Positions 25,136 through 38,576 of a stretch of 64,000 nucleotides of DNA are shown here, one piece after another (the stretch's first letter is position 1; every line of letters begins with the position of its first letter). Location of the stretch: contig JAHIVW010000003.1 in assembly GCA_018816245.1 (NCBI GenBank), forward strand, positions 186,001 through 250,000. The letters run 5' to 3'. Both the position numbers and the translations under genes were made by a program. The notes beneath the pieces are model-generated. The model was not told where the DNA came from. It did not search any database and saw only the letters and a list, made by a program, of their open reading frames with translations. Source of the DNA: Nanobdellota archaeon (GTDB taxonomy: Archaea > Aenigmatarchaeota > Aenigmatarchaeia > QMZP01).

Positions 25136-25492
25136 ATGAAGCTCCGCACGAAGCCCACTGCCAGGCCGTCCCAGCGGTATCTGTTCTTCAAGGTGCATGC
25201 CGAGGAACCGGTCGCATTCGAGAACCTTCAGGGGAGAATCTTTGAAGCACTTGAGGATTATCTTGGAGTTTCTGGAGTCTCCCAGGCAAACCTAAAACTC
25301 ATCAAGAATCTCTGGGACCGGCGGGCAAAGACAGGAGTGCTTCGCTGTACTCCCAAGACCGTTGACGAGGTGAAGCTGGCACTTGCGCTGATCCACCAGC
25401 TTGGGGACCAGCCGGTGCTCATCCAAACGCGTCGGGTGAGTGGGACGATTGCTGGAGGGAAGCGATCACGGCTTCGGAATCACACCGCCTAA
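25136..25492 (+). CDS. rnp2: Ribonuclease P protein component 2 (Pop5-like)
   Basis: A 118-residue protein with the Rnp2/Pop5 pattern: 'RYLFFKVHAEEP' at the first strand, a central helical part, and 'VLRCTPKTVDEVKLALALI' near the end. Rnp2 works with Rnp3 and the RNase P RNA to trim tRNA 5' ends. A good ribosome-binding site (AAAGGAG) precedes the ATG. The last 27 bases overlap the end of a convergent membrane-protein gene. Confidence 0.82.
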   Translation: MKLRTKPTARPSQRYLFFKVHAEEPVAFENLQGRIFEALEDYLGVSGVSQANLKLIKNLWDRRAKTGVLRCTPKTVDEVKLALALIHQLGDQPVLIQTRRVSGTIAGGKRSRLRNHTA

Positions 25493-25675
25493 AATATCAC
25501 TTCCAGAACCCGAAGATTTGATGCTCGTTTGGGTGAGCAAGTCTGAAAAGATCCGCTTGAGATTGGCGATCGCTTCTCCTGAATTAGTCCCAATGTCGAC
25601 CAATAATACAATGATAACAAGGAATGCAATGACAATGGCAATGATCACCACAAGCGTCCGTATTGAAAACTCCAT
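25466..25675 (-). CDS. Small single-pass membrane protein, last gene of pilin-like cluster
   Basis: A 69-residue protein with a short N-terminus (MEFSIR) and one long hydrophobic helix ('TLVVIIAIVIAFLVIIVLLV'), then a soluble Gly/Ser-ended tail. It starts four bases after the 973-residue gene stop behind a GGTGA site. Its shape matches the other cluster members. It could be a minor pilin-like subunit or a membrane adaptor. No family recognised. It overlaps rnp2 by 27 bases. Confidence 0.6.
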   Translation of the reverse strand: MEFSIRTLVVIIAIVIAFLVIIVLLVDIGTNSGEAIANLKRIFSDLLTQTSIKSSGSGSDILGGVIPKP

Positions 25676-25679
25676 AGCA

Positions 25680-28601
25680 TCACCCTGGCCAATTTGAATC
25701 TCCAAGTTTTTCAACAACGTAGTCTAACCCAAGGGAGACTCCCGAAAGAGCAAGGCTGAGCCCTCCGGAACTCGGTGCTGCTCCAAGAGCAACGCCATCG
25801 AGGATATTAACAATTGGTTTTCCGATAACGATCCACCAACTTGTTTTTGAATAACAGAAGTTGTGCTCATCCTTATAATTACTCATATCAGGTGAGACGA
25901 CGATGCCCCGGGTCGTGCATTCTTCTTGCATCAGGGTATCTATCTTTCCATCAGCGTCATAGTCATCCATAGAAAGTACCTGTGCTCCTTCTCCGGGAAT
26001 GGTGTATCCTTGCAACTCAATGTTTTCCCATTCTCCGTCTCCATCAATATCTTTGAAGGTTAACAATCGGGATGAATCAAACTGGATAACCTGTGCAAAG
26101 AGTCTGCTATATATATTTCCTTCAAACTTGAGCACTTTCACGTCTGTTGCCGGCGCAAAGAAGTCAGAGAGAAGAGGAAGATCTGCATCCTGCATCTCAC
26201 ACACAAACGGCTCTTGTTTTCTTGACGTAAAGAATCCACAGTTGAAACGAATCCGTGGTTGCTCCGCGAGGCGGAGACAGAGATAGTTTTCCATGTTGGA
26301 ATCTCCGCAATTACTAACACTTCCAGTGGTTTTGAATATTCCAGTATTCCATCCCAAGGAATTAAAGGGAATGGTTTCCTGAGGAACAAACCGATAGAAA
26401 TCTCCTTCAAAATTGTCGTTTTCGTGAAATGTTGTTATGATCTCAGGAATCTCATCAATGAAAATTGTGGCATGATTACTAAGGATCTCATTACAGGTCG
26501 CTTTTTTCAGATTCTCTGAATAGTCATAGACAACAATATCGAGTCCGTTCTTACATATCTCATCAACCCGATAGACGTCAATTGCCATATCATTGGATCC
26601 CCAGTTATCGTCAACTGCATAAATATGAAGGACGTAAGGGACGTCCTCCTCAAGGAACATGTCTGTTTCATAAACAAAGTTTCCAGAGGTCACGCTTCGG
26701 AGGATAGCTGGTTTAGGTTCCGTTGATTGAATTCGTCCCTCATAAAAATGGTAGATTTTCTGTTCAAGACCTGGGAAATAGTTTGATGTTCCTTCATTAA
26801 TTTTTGTGATATGGTCAATCCAGACGTCGTTAAGCGGGATCCCTGTGCTGGTATCTCCGAGATAAGGGAAAGTAATCTTTAACAAAGAAGATCCAAGAAG
26901 CGATTCAACGATTTCTTCATATTCCTTCTTGCTGAGTGTGTCGCCGACAGCTTTAGTTATTTCTGTCTGAACAAATTCATTTGACGTTTCGTAGGTAAAC
27001 AATGGTCGATAAGAAAGTCCAAACAGGGCTTCGAGATCACTCATATCAATTGTCGATTTAAGAGAAGGTGTCTCACTAGAAAGTAATTCAAGATTTTTTT
27101 CGATATCACCGCATTGTAATTCATTCGTCGAACTCAATTCTGGGTTTTCGCATATGACCGATCCCTCTTGGGTAACAACATATTTGTCACAAACAACGTT
27201 GTCTTCATACACAAAGAGGTCAGCACGGCAGGGGGATGCAAGATAGAACTGAGTGTCATCATCTGTTGCTCGTTTCTTTAATATAACAGGTTTTTCATTA
27301 TTAGGTGCGAGATTATTGAGTGCCGTTGTTTCTAAACCAGAAAGAGGAACAGTTTTGATTCCTGAATCATCACACTGAAGCGCTTTCTGGAGCACAAGGG
27401 TATTCGGTCTATTTAGGGCTTTTGAATGTTGGCATGCCGCCTGTTCAGCAATAATAGTTGCAATTGAGACATCAAAATAGTTTTGGACTGTTTTAATAGA
27501 TTCTTCGCCTTCAAGAACAACGGCATCGGTGATGCGATCCTTTTCGTCCTGTTTCAAAAACTGGAACAGATCGGGAACACCATTCAAAAGTGACTGGTCG
27601 GGGTTTTCTTCTTCTGCTAGAATAAATGCACTCGTTACTTCTTCTTGGTTTATACCTTTTTCAGTTACTTTGAGATACGTATCAACAGAATTCCCGTAGG
27701 TATTTTTGATCACTTTGTTGATCTTGTTTTTTGCAACATTATAGACAATCTTTCGTGCTTCTCCTGGTGTTGTTGATGTATCTGTCAAAATCATTGTCCC
27801 TCCTGTATCTTTGCCGGTTTCTACTTGATCAAAGACATCTTTGAAATAGACAACAGCAGCAATAACTCCACCAACAATCGCAAACTTTCCGAGCTTTGTT
27901 TTTGTGAGATATTTCAATGGTGAGGTAACAAGTTTTCTTGCCTTCACTCCAAGGAGTCCAGCAGGAACAGCATAGGTGCCTACACGAACAATACCACTGT
28001 AACTCACCCAGAAACCATTCCATGAATAATCTTCTCCTAACGGAAAGATTGTTTGAAAAATAAGATAGGTTGGATCACCAAACCCCCCGATGTATTCGTT
28101 AAAATCATCCTTGAATAACTCAGGAGAAAACCGTTCAGGAAGGTGAAATCCCTTGAGAAGGCATGTTACCTGTCCCTCTCCTCCTGGTTTCTTTTCACAG
28201 GTGAGACCAAGTTCGGATTGTTTGATGGCATCTCCTATTTCACCAATTTTCCCAGCTGGAGAAAGCGGAGGAAAAACTTGGTTCTCTTTTTCTTCATATT
28301 GAGGAGCTGTCTTGATGCAGGGAAGCGCATCATTTCCTTGTGCAACAGCACTCAATGCGCAGGCGAGCGAGGCTGTTGACTGGTATGCGATGATATTGTC
28401 TTGGGAAAGCTCTTTTTGATCACACCACCAGTACCAACTTGGTGCATCTTCATCACATGCTAAGAATCCTGCAATCCCACTTCCTCCTGACATGAGGATT
28501 GCCATAACCATGACAGCAAAAATGACAAAAGCGAAAACCCCCATAACTTCGATAATCGTGAAGGAGATACCCTTCCGTGAAGAGGAGCCAACACCCATCA
28601 T
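25680..28601 (-). CDS. Large membrane-anchored extracytoplasmic protein of pilin-like cluster
   Basis: A 973-residue protein. The N-terminus (MMGVGSSSRKG) leads into one hydrophobic helix ('FTIIEVMGVFAFVIFAVMVM'), like a class III signal segment. A second hydrophobic patch lies near residues 195-255. The rest is a large region with many cysteines, 'DIDGDGEW'- and 'DYDADGKID'-type Asp repeats that resemble calcium-binding loops near the C-terminus, and a final hydrophobic stretch before 'GDSNWPG'. It is the largest gene of the nine-gene unit and may be the main surface or adhesive component. I recognise no family. Confidence 0.65.
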   Translation of the reverse strand: MMGVGSSSRKGISFTIIEVMGVFAFVIFAVMVMAILMSGGSGIAGFLACDEDAPSWYWWCDQKELSQDNIIAYQSTASLACALSAVAQGNDALPCIKTAPQYEEKENQVFPPLSPAGKIGEIGDAIKQSELGLTCEKKPGGEGQVTCLLKGFHLPERFSPELFKDDFNEYIGGFGDPTYLIFQTIFPLGEDYSWNGFWVSYSGIVRVGTYAVPAGLLGVKARKLVTSPLKYLTKTKLGKFAIVGGVIAAVVYFKDVFDQVETGKDTGGTMILTDTSTTPGEARKIVYNVAKNKINKVIKNTYGNSVDTYLKVTEKGINQEEVTSAFILAEEENPDQSLLNGVPDLFQFLKQDEKDRITDAVVLEGEESIKTVQNYFDVSIATIIAEQAACQHSKALNRPNTLVLQKALQCDDSGIKTVPLSGLETTALNNLAPNNEKPVILKKRATDDDTQFYLASPCRADLFVYEDNVVCDKYVVTQEGSVICENPELSSTNELQCGDIEKNLELLSSETPSLKSTIDMSDLEALFGLSYRPLFTYETSNEFVQTEITKAVGDTLSKKEYEEIVESLLGSSLLKITFPYLGDTSTGIPLNDVWIDHITKINEGTSNYFPGLEQKIYHFYEGRIQSTEPKPAILRSVTSGNFVYETDMFLEEDVPYVLHIYAVDDNWGSNDMAIDVYRVDEICKNGLDIVVYDYSENLKKATCNEILSNHATIFIDEIPEIITTFHENDNFEGDFYRFVPQETIPFNSLGWNTGIFKTTGSVSNCGDSNMENYLCLRLAEQPRIRFNCGFFTSRKQEPFVCEMQDADLPLLSDFFAPATDVKVLKFEGNIYSRLFAQVIQFDSSRLLTFKDIDGDGEWENIELQGYTIPGEGAQVLSMDDYDADGKIDTLMQEECTTRGIVVSPDMSNYKDEHNFCYSKTSWWIVIGKPIVNILDGVALGAAPSSGGLSLALSGVSLGLDYVVEKLGDSNWPG

Positions 28602-28629
28602 TTTCTTTTAGAGTCCAGCTTAAAAAGGG

Positions 28630-29703
28630 TCAGGAAAGTGGCTCTGTGTGTCGGATAAGAAAGCGGAGTTCAAGCGGCGCTTCTTTTATCGTAGACCCTT
28701 TCTTAACCGGAACACGCTCTCCTGAAAGAAGGGTCGAGGTTACAAGAAACTCAGCTGTTGGCTGCAGAACAAAATCACACGTTAGTTCAGCCGTCCCTGC
28801 TTGTATACTTGACGAACAAGATGGAAGTAGCTTGACCGTTGCATGCTCAAGGGTGATGTGTGTTTCAATACCAGGGAGAATCGCTGTGTCGATTCCTTCA
28901 ACAATCAACAAGAGAGACGCCTGCAGATCACTTGTGAGCGTTTCTTCTATTTCAGAAAGTGATTTGCTGTATTGATTTTCGGTAAAGAGGGAAGCAAGAT
29001 CTCTCTGATTTGTTGGAAGATCTGTTCCGAGATCAATGGTTATTGTTCCTCCTTCTGGAATCGTGAGTGTTGGGTCCGGTTCCCACAGATCGATTCCTGT
29101 TTTTGTTGTCGGTCCAAGACTCGAGGCAAGTTGCGATCCAGCTTCAATGAGCGAAAAACAACCTGCAGGAAGGACTCGTTCAAACGAAAACGTTTTGCTG
29201 ACCTGAAAAACAAGATCAGAAGAAGGTGCTTCTCCAATTCCTGTTGCTTGTCTTGCTATTGCTGTAATGGTTCCAGTTGTATCAGGTGCTTCAACATCAA
29301 ATTCTGGAAGAATGTAGGTAAATGAGAAAAAACGGTTTATTCTCCCGGTATACGATTTCATATTGAGCTCTGCCTTTTCAGTTATTACAGCAAGGATAGT
29401 CTGCTGAGAGGGAGCCTTGAGTTCCTGGTTCCACCAGACAAGCGGAGAACCAGTAAATCCTGTTCCTCCACCAACGTACAGGGTATCGAAGCACGCCTGT
29501 CCTAGTGAGAAGGTCAATGCTGTGTTTGCAGTAATCTCTGCTGCATCAAGAGCATGGAATGCGCTAAATGTTTGGGCTTGAATATGAATATTTTCGGTTT
29601 CACCTGTTCTCAGATCTGGCAATATTACAAAATTATAGACAATAACACCGATAAACAGGAAACTGAGTGTGATCGACAATATATGGATTGCCATTCCTTT
29701 CAT
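28630..29703 (-). CDS. Single-pass membrane protein, pilin-like cluster
   Basis: A 357-residue protein that starts MKGMAIHIL and has one N-terminal hydrophobic helix (about residues 6-28), followed by a beta-rich extracytoplasmic domain with repeated Thr/Ser/Leu strands and four cysteines. The ATG at 29703 is one base from the stop of the gene before it, so the two are coupled; the frame to 29754 is only open sequence. The 'KG' before the helix resembles a prepilin peptidase site. No family recognised. Confidence 0.62.
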   Translation of the reverse strand: MKGMAIHILSITLSFLFIGVIVYNFVILPDLRTGETENIHIQAQTFSAFHALDAAEITANTALTFSLGQACFDTLYVGGGTGFTGSPLVWWNQELKAPSQQTILAVITEKAELNMKSYTGRINRFFSFTYILPEFDVEAPDTTGTITAIARQATGIGEAPSSDLVFQVSKTFSFERVLPAGCFSLIEAGSQLASSLGPTTKTGIDLWEPDPTLTIPEGGTITIDLGTDLPTNQRDLASLFTENQYSKSLSEIEETLTSDLQASLLLIVEGIDTAILPGIETHITLEHATVKLLPSCSSSIQAGTAELTCDFVLQPTAEFLVTSTLLSGERVPVKKGSTIKEAPLELRFLIRHTEPLS

Positions 29704-29704
29704 G

Positions 29705-30133
29705 TTAAGCACCGTCACTCTTTTCACGAACACGATAGGTTGTGTAACCACCACCAGGAACAGGAAGATCGATAAGGGTGTTCCCCTGAAACGTTGCTTC
29801 CACTGGCTCGATTGCTATACCGACCAGATCAGTCACTTTTACAAGTGTTTCCCCTTTTGCTGCCGACCAAATCTCTGCGCCTCGTTCTCCGAGTAATTGG
29901 GCAATCGGTACACGGTTACTTGTTGTTTGTAGTACGGTGATGGTTCCGCTGCCAGTATCCTCAATTTGATAGAAGAGGTTCACAGTCGATTTGATACCAA
30001 CAATATGACCGATCAACCCTCCTTTCGCGAGGAGAACAAGAACAGTAATGATCGTTGCTGCAACGATTCCTAAGATAAGCAGATCAACAAATCCATGCTG
30101 CTTTTTAGATTTGAACAATAATTTCACCGACAT
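29705..30133 (-). CDS. Single-pass membrane protein, pilin-like cluster
   Basis: A 142-residue protein: a basic N-terminus 'MSVKLLFKSKKQHG', one hydrophobic helix ('FVDLLILGIVAATIITVLVLL') and a soluble domain of about 100 residues with predicted strands. The 'KKQHG' just before the helix is a possible prepilin cleavage motif. Its start lies 28 bases inside the preceding gene. No family recognised. Confidence 0.6.
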   Translation of the reverse strand: MSVKLLFKSKKQHGFVDLLILGIVAATIITVLVLLAKGGLIGHIVGIKSTVNLFYQIEDTGSGTITVLQTTSNRVPIAQLLGERGAEIWSAAKGETLVKVTDLVGIAIEPVEATFQGNTLIDLPVPGGGYTTYRVREKSDGA

Positions 30134-30512
30134 GCACCTCTGTTCCACGTTTTATTGCTGTTGGGATCGTGTATTGTTCATTTAGTAATCCCGCTGAACC
30201 AAAACTCCATGTTGTCTTCCCTTCTGTTCCCATCTTATCAATCACAACAACGCGACCTTTAGGAAGGTCACATAATGTAGTTAGTATCATCTGTTCATTA
30301 TCAGTAAGAAAGGTTTCATCAATAACCGCTCCACCTAAACAGTGTCGGGCTCGGTGTGCATAGGAAGCAACCGCAATCTTCCCTTCCCCATAATCTGAGA
30401 TAACATCACTCTGAATAAGATTTCCTGTAACAATCAAGACCATGACCGCTAAGGTCATAATGTAAATAACAGCCGCTGCCATGTGTTCGACTTCGAAAGT
30501 TCCTTTCAACAC
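30105..30512 (-). CDS. Single-pass membrane protein, pilin-like cluster
   Basis: A 135-residue protein. I chose the GTG at 30512, which overlaps the previous stop (GTGTTGA) and gives an N-terminus reading VLKGTFEVEHMAAAVIYIM. 'LKG' followed by residues including Glu and then a hydrophobic stretch is close to an archaeal class III signal with the conserved Glu at position five of the mature pilin. The remainder is a small soluble domain with two cysteines. The frame open to 30557 runs inside the previous gene. Confidence 0.6.
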   Translation of the reverse strand: MLKGTFEVEHMAAAVIYIMTLAVMVLIVTGNLIQSDVISDYGEGKIAVASYAHRARHCLGGAVIDETFLTDNEQMILTTLCDLPKGRVVVIDKMGTEGKTTWSFGSAGLLNEQYTIPTAIKRGTEVHVGEIIVQI

Positions 30513-30919
30513 GCTTCCACCATCGCAAGTTTTTCTTCTTTTTTCTTCCGAATACACACCTTATTGACATGTTCTAACGAAATAAGCACGCTTTGTTGCT
30601 TCTTTTCAGGATAGGTGAGAATCATTGCCTGTGCTTGGTGTTTCTCCTCTGGACTAAGGGAAACGACAAAGAAATGTTTGCTATCTTCATAGATTACGGA
30701 TACATTGGCGTATGAAAACAACGAGAGTGTTGCAAATCCCTCATCAATCCCGGAAAGTGCAGAAATATAAAAGGCTCCTGTTTCTGCGTATTTTGTAGCA
30801 CTCACAGTTAGAGATGCAGCAGGTTGCAAAACAATGAACATAATAAAGGCTGCAAAGGCCGCAAAGACAAATGCCAGGAGCAAATAAAGAAACATCTCTG
30901 GACCGGTAAGTGCACTCAT
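30506..30919 (-). CDS. Single-pass membrane protein, pilin-like cluster
   Basis: A 137-residue protein: 'MSALTGPEMF' then a long hydrophobic helix (about residues 10-36), then a soluble domain with a highly basic C-terminal end ('KVCIRKKKEEKLAMVEAC'). A TG-P-E pattern before the helix is pilin-like (Gly and Glu). It begins four bases after the stop of the 219-residue gene and overlaps the next gene's GTG. No family recognised. Confidence 0.6.
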   Translation of the reverse strand: MSALTGPEMFLYLLLAFVFAAFAAFIMFIVLQPAASLTVSATKYAETGAFYISALSGIDEGFATLSLFSYANVSVIYEDSKHFFVVSLSPEEKHQAQAMILTYPEKKQQSVLISLEHVNKVCIRKKKEEKLAMVEAC

Positions 30920-30923
30920 AGAA

Positions 30924-31583
30924 TCACGTTAATGGTGTTTCACAGTTCAATTGACTGGTTGTATAGTCTCCTTTTACAGTATACGCATCGGCAAAGCCGG
31001 TATTTCGAATCAGGGTAATGCACACATAGAGCTTCTTTGTGTCACTGTTTGGATTGAATTCGGGGTTGTTCAAAAATTTTAATGGGGAACTATACGCAAC
31101 AAGATCAGCGAATTGCTGTTTTGTGTAATCTTTAACCGTCTCTGCTTCTCCTGGCGACAGTTTTCTTCCCGCATATTCACCGAGTCCGGGATTCTTTGGA
31201 ACAGCAATGATACAGCCTCCGCTTGTTGGACAGACTTTGCATGCATTAAAACACTCCTCATGATCTGGATCATATCCTTCAATGTTAGCATCACAGATCG
31301 CATTACATGTTGCCCGGTCTGCGAAGACAACACCGAGAACACAGGTTTTGTCGAGTTTAAGTGCGAACTTCACGATGTCTGCACCGAGCGTATTCTGTGA
31401 TCCATAAGGACCTATTCCTGAAATTTCATCAAGAGGGTCGAGGGTTTCTTTCCAACACGTTGAATACCAGAGTGTCCCAATGTCGCTTCCGAAGACCGCG
31501 ATGATGATGACTGCAAAAACAGCGAGAAAAATGATAAGCATAAAAGTCGAAACTTGCGTTTCGCCTGTTCGATAACTCCCCAT
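30924..31583 (-). CDS. Cysteine-rich single-pass membrane protein, pilin-like cluster
   Basis: A 219-residue protein. The N-terminus 'MGSYRTGETQVSTF' precedes one hydrophobic helix ('MLIIFLAVFAVIIIAVFG'). The 'TGETQ' stretch before the helix resembles a class III signal with Gly at the cleavage point and Glu nearby. The outer part has about ten cysteines, including 'CNAICDANIEGYDPDHEEC' and 'CKVCPTSGGC', suggesting a disulfide-stabilised module. No family recognised. Confidence 0.62.
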   Translation of the reverse strand: MGSYRTGETQVSTFMLIIFLAVFAVIIIAVFGSDIGTLWYSTCWKETLDPLDEISGIGPYGSQNTLGADIVKFALKLDKTCVLGVVFADRATCNAICDANIEGYDPDHEECFNACKVCPTSGGCIIAVPKNPGLGEYAGRKLSPGEAETVKDYTKQQFADLVAYSSPLKFLNNPEFNPNSDTKKLYVCITLIRNTGFADAYTVKGDYTTSQLNCETPLT

Positions 31584-31616
31584 AGAGTTCTATGGGGGAA
31601 CAGAAAATAAAAGGTC

Positions 31617-31736
31617 CTATCGAATTCCGGAGAATTGTCCATAGAGGTACAGACTCATGAGAATGACAATTGTCACCATGATAACTTCAAACCAGACGTT
31701 GAGTCCGGTGAAAATGATGTATCCCTTTTGTTTCAT
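31617..31736 (-). CDS. 39-residue membrane peptide, pilin-like cluster
   Basis: A tiny frame from ATG at 31736 to TAG at 31617. It starts MKQKGYIIF and has a hydrophobic helix containing 'VIMVTIVILMSLYLYG'. The ATG overlaps the stop of the 38-residue peptide (ATGA), and the next gene follows 33 bases later. Coupling on both sides argues that it is translated. The basic start and 'KG' match the other cluster members. Confidence 0.6.
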   Translation of the reverse strand: MKQKGYIIFTGLNVWFEVIMVTIVILMSLYLYGQFSGIR

Positions 31737-31849
31737 GGCAGCGACCCCACAAACTCAAAGCGCTGAATGAGCGCAACAATAAGGAGCATAACAACAAAAA
31801 TCGTGAGGAAAATGAGAAGCGTATTCATTCCAAAGCCTTTTCTCATCAT
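31733..31849 (-). CDS. 38-residue membrane peptide, pilin-like cluster
   Basis: A tiny frame whose ATG at 31849 overlaps the GGGP synthase stop (ATGA) and whose own stop overlaps the next ATG. The sequence starts MMRKGFGMNT and has one hydrophobic helix ('LLIFLTIFVVMLLIVALIQ'). It is the first of nine small-to-large single-pass proteins downstream of GGGP synthase. Confidence 0.6.
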   Translation of the reverse strand: MMRKGFGMNTLLIFLTIFVVMLLIVALIQRFEFVGSLP

Positions 31850-32598
31850 CCTTCACCATGAATCGCCCTGGCAAATTTCCGGATCGCCTCGACCGAGCCC
31901 TCCTGCTCGATCTTGGTTCCGATATGAATACAATTCGCGCCAGCCTTGATAAGGTTGCCAGCTTGCTCCGGGGTCTTCACCCCGCCCGCAATCACGAGTT
32001 TAATGTCAGAAACCTCGCGGATCGCTTTTATGATCGGAAGCGGTACGTGCTCCGGGGCACCGGATCCGGCCTCAAGGATCGCGAAGCGCATGCCCATGTA
32101 CTGCGCTGAGAGCGTATACGCAATCGCAAGGTCAGGCTTCTCTCGAGGAAGCAGGTGTGCTTCACCAACCCATCCTGCGGTCTGGCCAGGATCAAAAATG
32201 AGATAGGCAGTCGGAATTGGTTCAAGTCCAAGCTGCCGCACCACCAATGATCCCAGGGTCTGGGCACCGGTGATCCAGTACGGATTTTTGGAATTCATGA
32301 GACTCATAAAGTAGATGGAATCAGCATAGGGCGTTACGTTGCTGACGTTTCCCGGGAAGATGTGAAGCGGAACGGAAACAGATTCCTTGATCCGCTTGGC
32401 TAGGTCGTCCAGAACCGGCCCCTGGGCACCAATGGACCCACCGAGCATAATCACATCAGCCCCACCTTCTTCAAGTCGCTTGGCAAGCTTGGCTCCGTTT
32501 TCTGGAGGCTGTTTTGCTGGGTCGATCAATCCCATAAAAACACCCTTGCCCTGGTCATTGAGACTGTTGATGCGGGCCTCGGTTTTTCCGATCTTCAT
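31846..32598 (-). CDS. Geranylgeranylglyceryl phosphate synthase
   Basis: A 250-residue TIM-barrel prenyltransferase of the GGGPS/PcrB family, which joins geranylgeranyl diphosphate to sn-glycerol-1-phosphate in the first committed step of archaeal ether lipids. It shows 'MGLIDPAKQP', 'EGGADVIMLGGSIG', 'LPLHIFPGN'-type ('VPLHIFPGNVSNV') and the phosphate-binding 'LVIAGGVKTPEQA' and 'ANCIHIGTKIE'. The start is 51 nt from the divergent epimerase gene. Its last codon overlaps the first small membrane peptide, linking a lipid gene with the pilin-like cluster. Confidence 0.92.
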   Translation of the reverse strand: MKIGKTEARINSLNDQGKGVFMGLIDPAKQPPENGAKLAKRLEEGGADVIMLGGSIGAQGPVLDDLAKRIKESVSVPLHIFPGNVSNVTPYADSIYFMSLMNSKNPYWITGAQTLGSLVVRQLGLEPIPTAYLIFDPGQTAGWVGEAHLLPREKPDLAIAYTLSAQYMGMRFAILEAGSGAPEHVPLPIIKAIREVSDIKLVIAGGVKTPEQAGNLIKAGANCIHIGTKIEQEGSVEAIRKFARAIHGEG

Positions 32599-35489: not shown

Positions 35490-36398
35490 GTGAACCAATT
35501 CAGACCTGTTGTGAAACGAATCCCGTTCCTGCCGCTTTCTCCTGAGAAGGCACTCAAGACTAGCAGACACTTCCTCGGGATCGGGGAATCCCTCTCAAAG
35601 TTCTTCCCGGGGATTGGCTGGCATCTTCAGCAAGCAGAGATCAATCTTGAAGAACGGGAGTGGCTTTCCATTGCCTTCTATGTTTTCCTCTTCTATACCA
35701 TTCTCCTCTTCTCCGGGTTATTTGTGATTTTCCTTGCCGCAAAGATTGCGTTGCCGACAGCATTTGGCTTTTCCTTTGTGATCGGATTTGGGCTCGGGAT
35801 AGTCCAACTCGTGTATCTGGCGAATTACCCAAAACTTGTGTCACGGCGGAACATTCATGACATTGATGCCAACTTGCCAGCTGCACTGCATCATCTCCTC
35901 GTTCATGTCCGGTCAGGGGTCCCACTCTTTAACTCGCTCGTCTCTGTTGCCGCAACAAATTATGGCACTCTTTCCCGGGAATTCCAGCGTGCTATCAACG
36001 AGATTGAAACAGGAAAATCAGAAACAGCAGCGCTTGAAATGCTTGCCCGAAACAATCCGTCACTCCACTTCCGCCGGATCATGTGGCAGATGATCAATTC
36101 CATGAAGAGCGGTGTTGACATCGGGCAAACCCTGAAAGAAATCGTCAATTCCATTGCTGCCGAACAGAAGGTCGCTATCAAGAAGTACGGAAGTGAATTG
36201 AATCCGCTTGCCCTCTTCTATATGATGCTTGTGGTGATCTTTCCAACCTTAGGGATCGTGTTTCTCCTCGTGTTGACCTCCTTCGTTGGAACAGGATTGA
36301 ACATTGAATTTGTCTTGATTGGTATTTTGATTTTCTTATTCTTGGTCCAGTTCATGTTCGTCGGGCTCATGAAAAACAAGCGCCCGGTTGGTGTGTAA
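35490..36398 (+). CDS. Type II/IV secretion platform protein, T2SSF domain (TadC/FlaJ-like), first half
   Basis: A 302-residue membrane protein with the T2SSF cytoplasmic helical bundle ('DIDANLPAALHHLLVHVRSG', 'EIETGKSETAALEMLA') between membrane helices near residues 65-110 and two at the C-terminus (about 235-295). It resembles half of archaeal FlaJ/PilC, the membrane platform on which a secretion ATPase extends pilins. It starts with GTG 12 bases after thrS. The next gene is a second T2SSF protein, so the platform is split as in TadB/TadC. No ATPase gene lies here. Confidence 0.82.
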   Translation: MNQFRPVVKRIPFLPLSPEKALKTSRHFLGIGESLSKFFPGIGWHLQQAEINLEEREWLSIAFYVFLFYTILLFSGLFVIFLAAKIALPTAFGFSFVIGFGLGIVQLVYLANYPKLVSRRNIHDIDANLPAALHHLLVHVRSGVPLFNSLVSVAATNYGTLSREFQRAINEIETGKSETAALEMLARNNPSLHFRRIMWQMINSMKSGVDIGQTLKEIVNSIAAEQKVAIKKYGSELNPLALFYMMLVVIFPTLGIVFLLVLTSFVGTGLNIEFVLIGILIFLFLVQFMFVGLMKNKRPVGV

Positions 36399-36399
36399 C

Positions 36400-37353
36400 A
36401 TGATCGCGAACTATACCCCTTTAAGTTACCGGAGGAAAATCCGTTCGCTGCTCGCTCTTACTGAAAGCAAACGGACAGCAGAAAGTTTCATCGACCGGGC
36501 AATCGTGGTCAGTGTTTTGATCGGTCTTGGTGCAGGGTTTCTCGTGCTTGATCTGTTCCTTCCTCTTTTTGCAGTCGTTGCAGTGGCAACCTTTGGGTTT
36601 TTCCATGGGTTCCTGTATCTTGCCATTGAACGCAGGATCCACTTTGTTGAGGAGATCCTTCCTGATGCGCTCCAACTCATGGCTGCCAACAGCCGGGCAG
36701 GCTACATTCCGAGCCGGGCGCTCGTCCTCTCTGCCCGAAAGGAGTTTGGCCCTCTCGGCGACGCGATCCGAAGAGCAGGAAAGGAGATTATGACAGGAAA
36801 ATCGCTTGAAGAGGGATTGTTGACTATCAACAAAAAGATCAATTCTTCCTTATTGGAGAAATCCGTTAGACTTATCATTGAAGGAACACGGGCAGGTGGT
36901 CGGTTTGCACAGCTCTTGTTGGAGAATGCTGAGGATATCCGAAGAATGCAAGAAATTAAGAAAGAGGTTCATGCAAGTATCATGATGTACATTATTTTTA
37001 TCGGATTTGCCGGGGTGGTCGCAGCACCGGGGTTGTATGCCCTTTCAGGATTCCTCATCGATACGATCTCGAAGCTAGGAGCATCGGCAACCTTGCCAGA
37101 AACCGCATCCGCTGCCGGCAAGTTTGCTTCGATTAGTTCTGTCTCGATTGACCCGATCTTCCTCTTCTGGTTTTCCCTTGCTGCAATTTTGATCACAGTC
37201 ACATTTGGATCCTTGATTCTTGGTCTCATTGCAACCGGAAAAGAGAAAAGTGGTTTGCGGTTCCTCCCGTTTTTTGTGATTGTGAGTCTTGCTATCTTTT
37301 TCGTTTCCCGAATCGTTATCGGAAGCATTTTTGGCGGGCTTGTTCCCGGTTAA
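36400..37353 (+). CDS. Type II/IV secretion platform protein, T2SSF domain (TadC/FlaJ-like), second half
   Basis: A 317-residue membrane protein. It has a T2SSF bundle ('EEILPDALQLMAANSRAGYI', 'IMTGKSLEEGLLTINKKINS') with helices at about 30-75, 190-225 and 260-310. It starts one base after the stop of the first T2SSF gene. Both halves together match the usual length of archaeal FlaJ-like platforms (about 600 residues). The preceding in-frame start at 36388 would overlap the previous gene. Confidence 0.82.
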   Translation: MIANYTPLSYRRKIRSLLALTESKRTAESFIDRAIVVSVLIGLGAGFLVLDLFLPLFAVVAVATFGFFHGFLYLAIERRIHFVEEILPDALQLMAANSRAGYIPSRALVLSARKEFGPLGDAIRRAGKEIMTGKSLEEGLLTINKKINSSLLEKSVRLIIEGTRAGGRFAQLLLENAEDIRRMQEIKKEVHASIMMYIIFIGFAGVVAAPGLYALSGFLIDTISKLGASATLPETASAAGKFASISSVSIDPIFLFWFSLAAILITVTFGSLILGLIATGKEKSGLRFLPFFVIVSLAIFFVSRIVIGSIFGGLVPG

Positions 37354-37420
37354 TGAATTTGACCCCGCACTTGAGGCTTATATAGGATCGTAGCTATACT
37401 GTTATATCAGGTGCAAACTA

Positions 37421-37894
37421 ATGCAAACACGAAAAGGTCAGTCGGCGATGGAGTACCTGATGACATATGGCTGGGCTATTCTGATCGTCATCATCGTCGC
37501 TGCTGCACTGTTTGCTCTTGGAGTCTTCAATCCCGGCACATTCACCTCATCAACCGCGACCGGGTTCAACGAATTCCAGGTTGAAACTGGGGGTTGGCAG
37601 CTCAACACATCGTCCAATGATGCTTTCCTGATTCAACTGAAGAATGCTGCAGGATCACAGGTCACCATCACCAATATTACTGTGACCATCGGAGCAACGA
37701 CCCTGAGCAACACAACGGACATTGGTGATGAGGTGCTTGCAGCGAATGAGGAAGGAACCTATGCTGTCTCGTTTGCTAACTCCTTCTCATCCGGCTCATC
37801 CTACACAGCAACCGTTGAAATCACCTACACCAACGACAATACCGGATTCACAGGCTTCAAGGAAACAGGCACAGTTACAGGTACTGTGGTGTAA
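37421..37894 (+). CDS. Archaeal type IV pilin (class III signal peptide)
   Basis: A 157-residue pilin. The N-terminus 'MQTRKGQSAMEYLMTYGWAI' has the prepilin peptidase site RKG|QSAMEY with Glu at position five of the mature protein, and a hydrophobic helix ('LIVIIVAAALFALGVF'). The rest is a Thr/Ser/Asn-rich beta domain. It follows the two platform genes, so it is probably the main subunit they assemble. A pyrimidine-rich stretch after the stop looks like a terminator. Confidence 0.9.
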   Translation: MQTRKGQSAMEYLMTYGWAILIVIIVAAALFALGVFNPGTFTSSTATGFNEFQVETGGWQLNTSSNDAFLIQLKNAAGSQVTITNITVTIGATTLSNTTDIGDEVLAANEEGTYAVSFANSFSSGSSYTATVEITYTNDNTGFTGFKETGTVTGTVV

Positions 37895-37899
37895 AGCTT

Positions 37900-37927
37900 A
37901 CACCTCTTTTTCTTTCTTTTTCCTTCT
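37900..37927. terminator. Pyrimidine-rich terminator between convergent pilin genes
   Basis: A run of T-rich sequence (ctctttttctttctttttcc) lies between the pilin stop at 37894 and the stop of the convergent pilin-like gene at 37940. Oligo-T runs are the usual archaeal termination signal. Confidence 0.4.
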
Positions 37928-37939
37928 TGAGAAGAGAGA

Positions 37940-38347
37940 CTATTCAACGACCGTGATATTTGCCCCGTTCATTAAGGCATCAATCTGGAGGGTATAGGTT
38001 CCTGATTCAAGAGGAATTATTCCGGTCATGTTCACGTTCGCAACAGCGACCACATCCGTGCTCCCTGTTCCCACCCGAACGCGGATTTGTGCTGTTTTTC
38101 CTGAGAGGTTCGTCGAGATGACCCCATTTGGGATCTGAACCATGACATTGATGCGGGCAGGCGGTCCCTGCCCTGCGACAATATTCACAGCATCAACGAT
38201 CCTGTTGACGGTCGTATCTGCATAGGCGAGGGCGAGCTGTTCGTTCGATACCTGTTGTACGGTTGTTGTGTAGGACCAAATGGGAAGCAAGAACATGAGC
38301 ACGAGACCCACGATAATGAGGTATTCAACCGCGACCTGACCCCGCAT
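37940..38347 (-). CDS. Pilin-like protein with class III signal
   Basis: A 135-residue protein starting MRGQVAVEYLIIVGLVLMF. 'RG|QVAVEY' fits the archaeal prepilin cleavage pattern with Glu at mature position five, followed by a hydrophobic helix. The C-terminal part is a small Val/Ile/Thr-rich beta domain. I chose the ATG at 38347; the frame open to 38413 is unlike a signal. It faces the main pilin gene tail to tail and may be a minor pilin. Confidence 0.82.
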   Translation of the reverse strand: MRGQVAVEYLIIVGLVLMFLLPIWSYTTTVQQVSNEQLALAYADTTVNRIVDAVNIVAGQGPPARINVMVQIPNGVISTNLSGKTAQIRVRVGTGSTDVVAVANVNMTGIIPLESGTYTLQIDALMNGANITVVE

Positions 38348-38576
38348 ACTGTCCTCTTCGAGATTCGTCCATATAACCATCAAGGGGCGCACCAAGAAAT
38401 TGGATGACATCAAATCGAGTTGATTGACAGGGAATTTGATGCCGAGGCACGCCTTAGACTATCCTCTTGTTGCGCTTCCTCATAAAGAGAGTGGGAGGAG
38501 TGGGAAGTCAAAATTCAATTAACACTGTTAACCAAATTTGCAAGTCTTAAATAACTTACATCCCAGTTTTTCTCCA

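Follow-up and report, generated by a model that had tools for sequence, protein, structure and literature searches.

The surface subunits of a dedicated, type IV filament-like machine of DPANN archaea are very likely the products of nine consecutive genes in a stretch of archaeal DNA. The stretch (the window) comprises 64,000 nucleotides, positions 186,001 to 250,000 of contig JAHIVW010000003.1 of a Nanobdellota archaeon, and comes from an 886-kb genome in six contigs. The nine open reading frames (ORFs) lie on its minus strand at 25466-31849 and are labelled A to I in the order of transcription. Our conclusion follows from the adjacency of array and motor genes in relatives, the presence of single orthologues of these motor genes in the window genome, and the murein hydrolase domains that array subunits carry in other lineages. 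All data are metagenome-assembled genomes (MAGs), and loci are cited below by their L numbers.

The array in the window and in related genomes

The nine genes and their upstream neighbor are the following:

Gene A, 31733..31849, minus strand: 38 aa, MMRKGFGMNTLLIFLTIF..., tiny K-G single-pass protein that heads the array
Gene B, 31617..31736, minus strand: 39 aa, MKQKGYIIF..., tiny K-G single-pass protein
Gene C, 30924..31583, minus strand: 219 aa, single-pass, Cys-rich
Gene D, 30506..30919, minus strand: 137 aa, single-pass; SLT lytic transglycosylase domain absent from the window copy
Gene E, 30105..30512, minus strand: 135 aa, GTG start, VLKGTFEVEHM..., single-pass
Gene F, 29705..30133, minus strand: 142 aa, single-pass, conserved IPLPGG motif; no M23 or M15 domain in the window copy
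Gene G, 28630..29703, minus strand: 357 aa, KG and a long N-terminal helix, then an alpha/beta domain
Gene H, 25680..28601, minus strand: 973 aa, N-terminal helix and Cys-rich core; the largest subunit
Gene I, 25466..25675, minus strand: 69 aa, MEFSIRTLVV..., small single-pass protein usually found after H; K-G motif absent
GGGP synthase (PcrB family), 31846..32598, minus strand: 175 bits over the family cut-off; upstream neighbor of the array

An earlier reading made from the letters of the window alone (the sequence-only reading) had described nine tightly spaced genes of these lengths, with gaps of about 30 bases before C and H, and had proposed an undescribed pilus-like assembly with the 973-residue protein as its largest part. 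All nine ORFs are present as described. From A to I, the distances to the preceding stop are −4, −4, 33, 4, −7, −29, 1, 28, and 4 bases, exact gene starts being uncertain because of strand-crossing ORFs and long MAFFT gaps. The proposal that each protein has one hydrophobic helix holds for the N-terminal helix, which is present in all nine, but H contains another hydrophobic segment, near residue 240. No family was recognized in the earlier reading, and in our searches none of the nine proteins reached the curated cut-off of any Pfam or NCBIfam family or matched a PHROGs family; a viral origin of the array was rejected on the latter ground. Known families considered for H, C, G, E, or F gave empty or chance-level results with Pfam, NCBIfam, and PDB profiles.

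Homologues of H were found by tblastn in 37 of 61 sampled genomes and by profile in 55 of 106 Aenigmatarchaeota genomes with a completeness of 80% or more, among them every one of the 21 from the same family and order. H-bearing relatives in public records are labeled as Candidatus Aenigmatarchaeota, together with a few Woesearchaeota/Nanoarchaeota. Using iterative hidden Markov models (HMMs) around the H homologues, we recovered 18 loci, 17 of which keep the order C-D-E-F-G; the 18th (C-D-E-F) ends at a contig end. H and I usually adjoin C-G, and B or another tiny gene immediately precedes C, with B homologues directly upstream of C in L046, L050, L051, L055, and L056. No homologue of the 38-residue A was detectable by sequence search of the relatives' loci; tiny K-G genes like A occupy the same place there, for example, in L041 (10014-10139). 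Homologues share only about 15 to 25% sequence identity, and gene order is thus far better conserved than sequence. With order and neighbors conserved phylum-wide, the arrangement is far beyond chance.

Individual subunits also have conserved features. An alignment of 19 homologues of C shows five invariant cysteines. The core of H is marked by the motifs CxVxNFxLPQ, GDPxYLxYWQxFPxGEDxxW, and FYLASPC, with WP at the C-terminal end, and H of relatives contains variable inserts. Between D and E, only the signal and helix part is shared.

The sequence-only reading had also noted Gly before the helix in several of the proteins. A Lys/Arg-Gly/Ala pair stands directly before the first helix in 77 of 98 homologues of B to G, compared with 15 of 63 background proteins (Fisher p = 6e-12), the background being other N-terminally anchored proteins encoded by neighboring genes in the same loci. 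This part of the observation therefore stands for B to G; for I, discussed below, it does not.

The GGGP synthase gene, to which the array had been described as coupled, overlaps the start of A with its stop by 4 bases in the window. It adjoins the array in the window and in L022, L026, L032, L037, L041, L071, and L089, that is, in only some relatives, and the coupling is a lineage-level arrangement rather than a property of the system. A function linked to GGGP synthase was rejected on this basis; the enzyme is a neighbor only and lies outside the machine.

One contig deposited as "Nitrospirae bacterium JdFR-85" (L080, MTOU01000018.1) encodes, in two reading frames, an H up to 67% identical to aenigmatarchaeal H and is probably a mis-binned archaeal contig.

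Cognate motor genes and their distribution

In relatives, the array lies directly behind genes for a type IV filament ATPase and platform, which, together with the conserved gene order, gives good support to the pilus-like assembly suggested earlier. The sequence-only reading had named the lack of a conserved order among relatives as an outcome that would contradict it, and this outcome did not occur. In L109 (G031, same order as the window genome), eleven genes follow one another on one strand: ATPase (750 aa), platform (708 aa), H, I, an A-like gene, B, C, D, E, F, and G. Profile searches identified 12 genomes in which the ATPase, the platform, or both adjoin H or its array (L046, L049, L050, L055 [platform only], L056, L035, L102, L103, L105, L108, L109, and L111). 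The array-adjacent ATPases pass the Pfam T2SSE cut-off (PF00437) with 54 to 66 bits, and the Walker A motif is kept in this family; their nearest solved relatives are archaeal GspE2 (2OAP, 1.9e-28), followed by CpaF and then FlaI. The platform is a tandem T2SSF protein, which scored over the PF00482 cut-off in four of six cases tested, below it in one, and without a match in one; the L109 platform was identified via close homologues, four of which pass PF00482.

The window genome contains exactly one clear orthologue of each. The ATPase orthologue (C4:24239-26563) scores 1181 bits and the next paralogue 113 bits; the platform orthologue (C4:67144-69276) scores 808 bits, and the next best is a gene of the window itself (35490-36398) with 48 bits. 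Since the cognate ATPase and platform are single-copy elsewhere on the contig, we regard the window array as the relocated arm of a split locus. A Peptidase_A24 prepilin peptidase, 33 bits over its cut-off, divergently adjoins the cognate platform. Adjoining the ATPase are divergent, coiled-coil-rich genes of 128 and 282 aa and a gene for a protein with several transmembrane (TM) segments, and the divergent coiled-coil layout recurs beside the ATPase in L135, L137, L138, L141, and L142.

The platform genes at 35490-37353 of the window, which the sequence-only reading had put forward as possible assembly machinery, were rejected as the motor. They score only 48 and 9 bits against the cognate platform profile, belong to a different lineage, and thus serve some other filament. 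The region 35490-38413 is a second, classical filament locus in the window, in which two separate T2SSF platform genes are followed by a pilin (KGQSAMEY, 37421-37894), with a convergent pilin gene (MRGQVAVEY) at 37940-38413; no ATPase gene was seen beside this locus. Three more T2SSE ATPases are encoded by the 886-kb genome (G000) at C4:150279, C4:517952, and C3:68908 (L116, L117, and L118), and it seems that the genome holds up to four filament systems.

The tandem platform is present in 103 of the 106 Aenigmatarchaeota genomes, in all 39 whose completeness is 90% or more, and, for the phylum to which a woesearchaeal genome belongs, in 59 of 60 sampled genomes. Where H is undetectable, the ATPase-platform pair or the platform alone still precedes an array of single-pass proteins (L135, L137, L138, L140, L141, and L142), and the same platform-then-array layout occurs in L144, L146, and L148 of the second phylum. 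Nearly all archaea of the two DPANN phyla therefore seem to have the machine.

Next to the ATPase, on the opposite strand or side, lie a coiled-coil gene of about 130 aa, a second of about 210 to 280 aa, and one to three genes for proteins of about 180 to 200 aa with 4 to 5 TM segments (L135, L137, L138, L141, L142, L143-L148, and L114). These neighbors probably belong to the machine.

Murein hydrolase and other domains on array subunits

Of 28 genomes with F, 17 have it fused to a murein peptidase, which is M23 in 15 (L028, L032, L037, L046, L051, L054, L109, L151, L152, L155-L157, L159, L160, and L164) and M15 in two (L050 and L055). The other 11 genomes, the window's included, have a plain F. 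Zn-ligand motifs are present in the F domains (HGGxD with HLH or a variant; SMHxxGxAxD). D has a C-terminal SLT lytic transglycosylase domain in about 10 genomes, with the motifs GLMQ or TES visible in L032, L051, and L054; because these long members carry SLT, the D profile also matched lytic transglycosylases. The set C-D(SLT)-E-F(M23)-G is intact or nearly so in L152, L155, L157, L159, and L164 and lacks C in L156. For L151-L164, domains were called with HMMs built for this analysis, and Pfam whole-genome matches fall at the same places. One G orthologue has a PG_binding_1 insert, and in the second phylum, an array protein of L146 combines SLT (5e-26) with Amidase_2 (5e-30).

Across the 106 genomes of the phylum, M23 was found in 38 and SLT in 30, and neither gave a match in four archaeal control genomes. 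Contamination is an unlikely source of hydrolase domains that occur, in many genomes, as in-frame fusions with conserved subunits. To our knowledge, archaea make no murein, and the domains on D and F therefore probably target bacterial walls. From these domain assignments we suggest, tentatively, that the machine may breach bacterial walls in hydrolase-bearing lineages; for the window organism, we propose a machine for attachment or contact only.

Other domains occur on array proteins as well. The H of L087 (9674-13678) has a kelch beta-propeller insert at about residues 596 to 798, suggesting that adhesive domains are acquired by H. In a woesearchaeal genome, a D-like array protein (L096:6352-7644) has a phosphodiester glycosidase (NAGPA) domain, possibly another wall- or glycan-acting enzyme, and a large array protein of 826 aa (L141:5896-8376) contains a beta/gamma-crystallin domain. 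Stand-alone M23 genes of 150 to 175 aa lie outside the array, in housekeeping-like surroundings, in L158, L167, L168, L169, and L170.

Alternative explanations, proposed mechanism, and known systems

Several observations weigh against a type IV filament-like machine. No filament has been observed. In the window genome, the array is not adjacent to the motor genes, and the genome contains no M23 or SLT domain, so that we make no wall-cutting claim for this organism. Subunit I, with its conserved start MEF.IR, lacks the K-G motif, the pair being present in only 5 of 22 homologues. Glu at position +5 is missing from most subunits (0/15 for C, 1/12 for D, 2/16 for E, 0/17 for F, 0/17 for G, and 4/23 for H). 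The remark of the sequence-only reading on a nearby Glu holds only weakly, since most cases of a Glu between +4 and +6 come from E (7/16), D (5/12), and H (13/23), and the N terminus of E is the nearest to a classical prepilin among the array members. Archaeal minor pilins can lack the +5 Glu, and its absence thus lowers the case for membership only as classical pilins. A pilin fold was confirmed for no subunit. The structure model of G consists of an N-terminal helix (residues 4 to 78) followed by an alpha/beta domain (mean predicted local distance difference test [pLDDT] score, 77.5), and the AlphaFold model of H has a confident Cys-rich core with the rest mostly uncertain (mean pLDDT, 51.7); Foldseek found no match in the PDB for either model. 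The N-terminal part of the D profile matched the Pyrococcus furiosus archaellin weakly (E value of 3e-4 with all members), a value that falls to 0.13 when only short members are used and that we take as a hint, not as proof. An archaellum family was not found among the nine proteins with Pfam and NCBIfam, and none was noticed beside the ATPase-platform pairs, FlaH/F/G profiles not having been run.

A conventional archaeal adhesion pilus would account for much of this. A to I would then be minor pilins and adhesins, and the bulk of the filament would be a classical pilin encoded elsewhere (such as 37421-37894 or 37940-38413). Hydrolases in relatives would do no more than loosen material around the fiber. 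Both of these window pilins have the +5 Glu, and there is precedent in archaea for type IV pilus loci that combine numerous minor pilins and a large adhesin with major pilins encoded at scattered sites (PMC4858521). However, the ATPase and platform form a tandem-domain lineage of their own, far from the other filament genes of the genome, minor pilins usually come in a set much smaller than this array, and catalytic domains are found on the array subunits. We consider this explanation somewhat unlikely. Less likely still is a pseudopilus akin to type II secretion, in which the array would supply pseudopilins for pumping proteins across the surface layer and the hydrolases would be incidental. 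The nearest solved ATPase carries a type II secretion annotation, and GspG-K show a similar pattern of distinct, ordered subunits in few copies, one of them large; however, neither a secretin-like gene nor a substrate gene was noticed next to the array, archaea lack an outer membrane, and enzymes fused to subunits favor a working tip over secreted cargo.

That the array forms an envelope complex with no relation to type IV filaments, and only happens to neighbor the ATPase and platform in some genomes, is quite improbable. There is no fold-level proof of pilins among the subunits, and in the window's family the array is apart from the motor, but the two are found side by side repeatedly, across many genera and also in the second phylum, genomes in which the array has moved retain the single-copy motor genes, and the subunits are enriched in the K-G motif. 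A ComEC-type DNA uptake machine supplying nucleotides to a host-dependent cell, in line with the small genomes and with the pilus DNA import proposed for DPANN archaea (PMC9563170), was rejected as extremely unlikely because ComEC (PF03772) was found in 0 of 106 genomes by a search that was positive in 10 bacterial control genomes.

For the type IV filament-like machine, we propose the following mechanism. The subunits would be inserted with the N terminus inside and the C-terminal domain outside, an orientation suggested by the K-G motif and the conserved cysteines, and would probably be cut at the Gly by the prepilin peptidase. By turning the platform, the ATPase would drive them up from the membrane to form a short filament or a tip complex that passes the single archaeal membrane and the surface layer. 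In this structure, H would be the large, adhesin-like subunit at the end, and C, D, E, F, and G would form the tip or serve as minor subunits; stalk or adaptor roles may fall to the tiny A, B, and I. When the tip touches another cell, the transglycosylase on D and the endopeptidase on F would locally open the bacterial wall in many relatives; the window organism, which has neither enzyme, would attach to other cells without cutting the wall or rely on enzymes that escaped detection.

A broader proposal, which we likewise advance with caution, is that the two DPANN phyla share a short, extensible, filament-like device of about nine single-pass subunits, led by H, that has a piercing tip and grips a partner. 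Where the enzymes on D and F are present, they would cut bacterial murein, and many of these archaea would be symbionts or predators of bacteria; enzyme-free lineages such as the window's would target murein-free (archaeal) partners. The presence or absence of D-SLT and F-M23 would then predict a bacterial or nonbacterial partner, and which DPANN archaea live on bacteria becomes a testable question. Being present in nearly every sampled genome of two phyla, the machine is likely to be central to life on other cells.

The array also offers an ordered list of candidates for the pilins of DPANN motors that lack recognizable ones. The cognate pilins of one nanoarchaeal ATPase could not be assigned (PMC4858521), and for DPANN pilus motors it has been stated that "no pilins were annotated" (PMC9563170). 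Signal-bearing uncharacterized proteins next to TadC in DPANN "dark matter" islands have been proposed as diverse pilins (Makarova, Wolf, and Koonin 2019, PMC6393860, Fig. 2A); in the text consulted, the proposal comes without conserved subunit families, gene order, phylum-wide distribution, a split locus, or enzymatic fusions.

Closest in motor layout are the type IV pilus loci of cluster 2 DPANN archaea, "Locus 1" and "Locus 2," which encode CpaF, TadC, and coiled-coil proteins (Hamm et al. 2024, PMC11291902). There, too, an ATPase and a platform stand beside coiled-coil genes, conserved in DPANN phyla that include Aenigmarchaeota and Woesearchaeota, and the cognate ATPase of the window genome has such neighbors as well, a likeness of gene layout. 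In those loci, filament proteins were shown only for Locus 1, whereas here ordered single-pass subunits, a large H, and murein hydrolase fusions are tied to the ATPase-platform pair. Archaeal type IV pili of clades 1 to 4 are similar in having a TadA/GspE2/FlaI-type ATPase, a platform, a prepilin peptidase, minor pilins, a large adhesin, and, in some clades, Cys-rich subunits (Makarova et al. 2016, PMC4858521); the present system differs in its single tandem platform, long fixed array, unique large subunit, hydrolases, and mostly absent +5 Glu. The bacterial Tad/Flp pilus and the type II secretion pseudopilus use the same ATPase and platform families, and the tiny pilins of the former and the few-copy, ordered pseudopilins of the latter have counterparts here, but we noticed no Flp pilin motif or outer membrane secretin, and the subunit families are unrelated by sequence.

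Murein-like lytic transglycosylase proteins have been described in Pacearchaeota and Woesearchaeota (Castelle et al. 2021, PMC8204110), and archaeal peptidoglycan hydrolases have been reported (PMC12352652). As here, the murein-degrading domains of DPANN archaea were read as acting on bacterial walls; those enzymes were reported as free-standing or large extracellular proteins, whereas the domains described here belong to conserved subunits of a filament array. In the open-licence literature, we found no earlier description of the ordered subunit set, of its phylum-wide tie to a tandem platform, or of hydrolase domains on the subunits, although a description elsewhere is possible.

Two loci, L153 and L154 (G076 and G075), each contain two tandem platform genes, both followed by an array of their own and with an M23 protein nearby, possibly representing duplicated machines within one genome.

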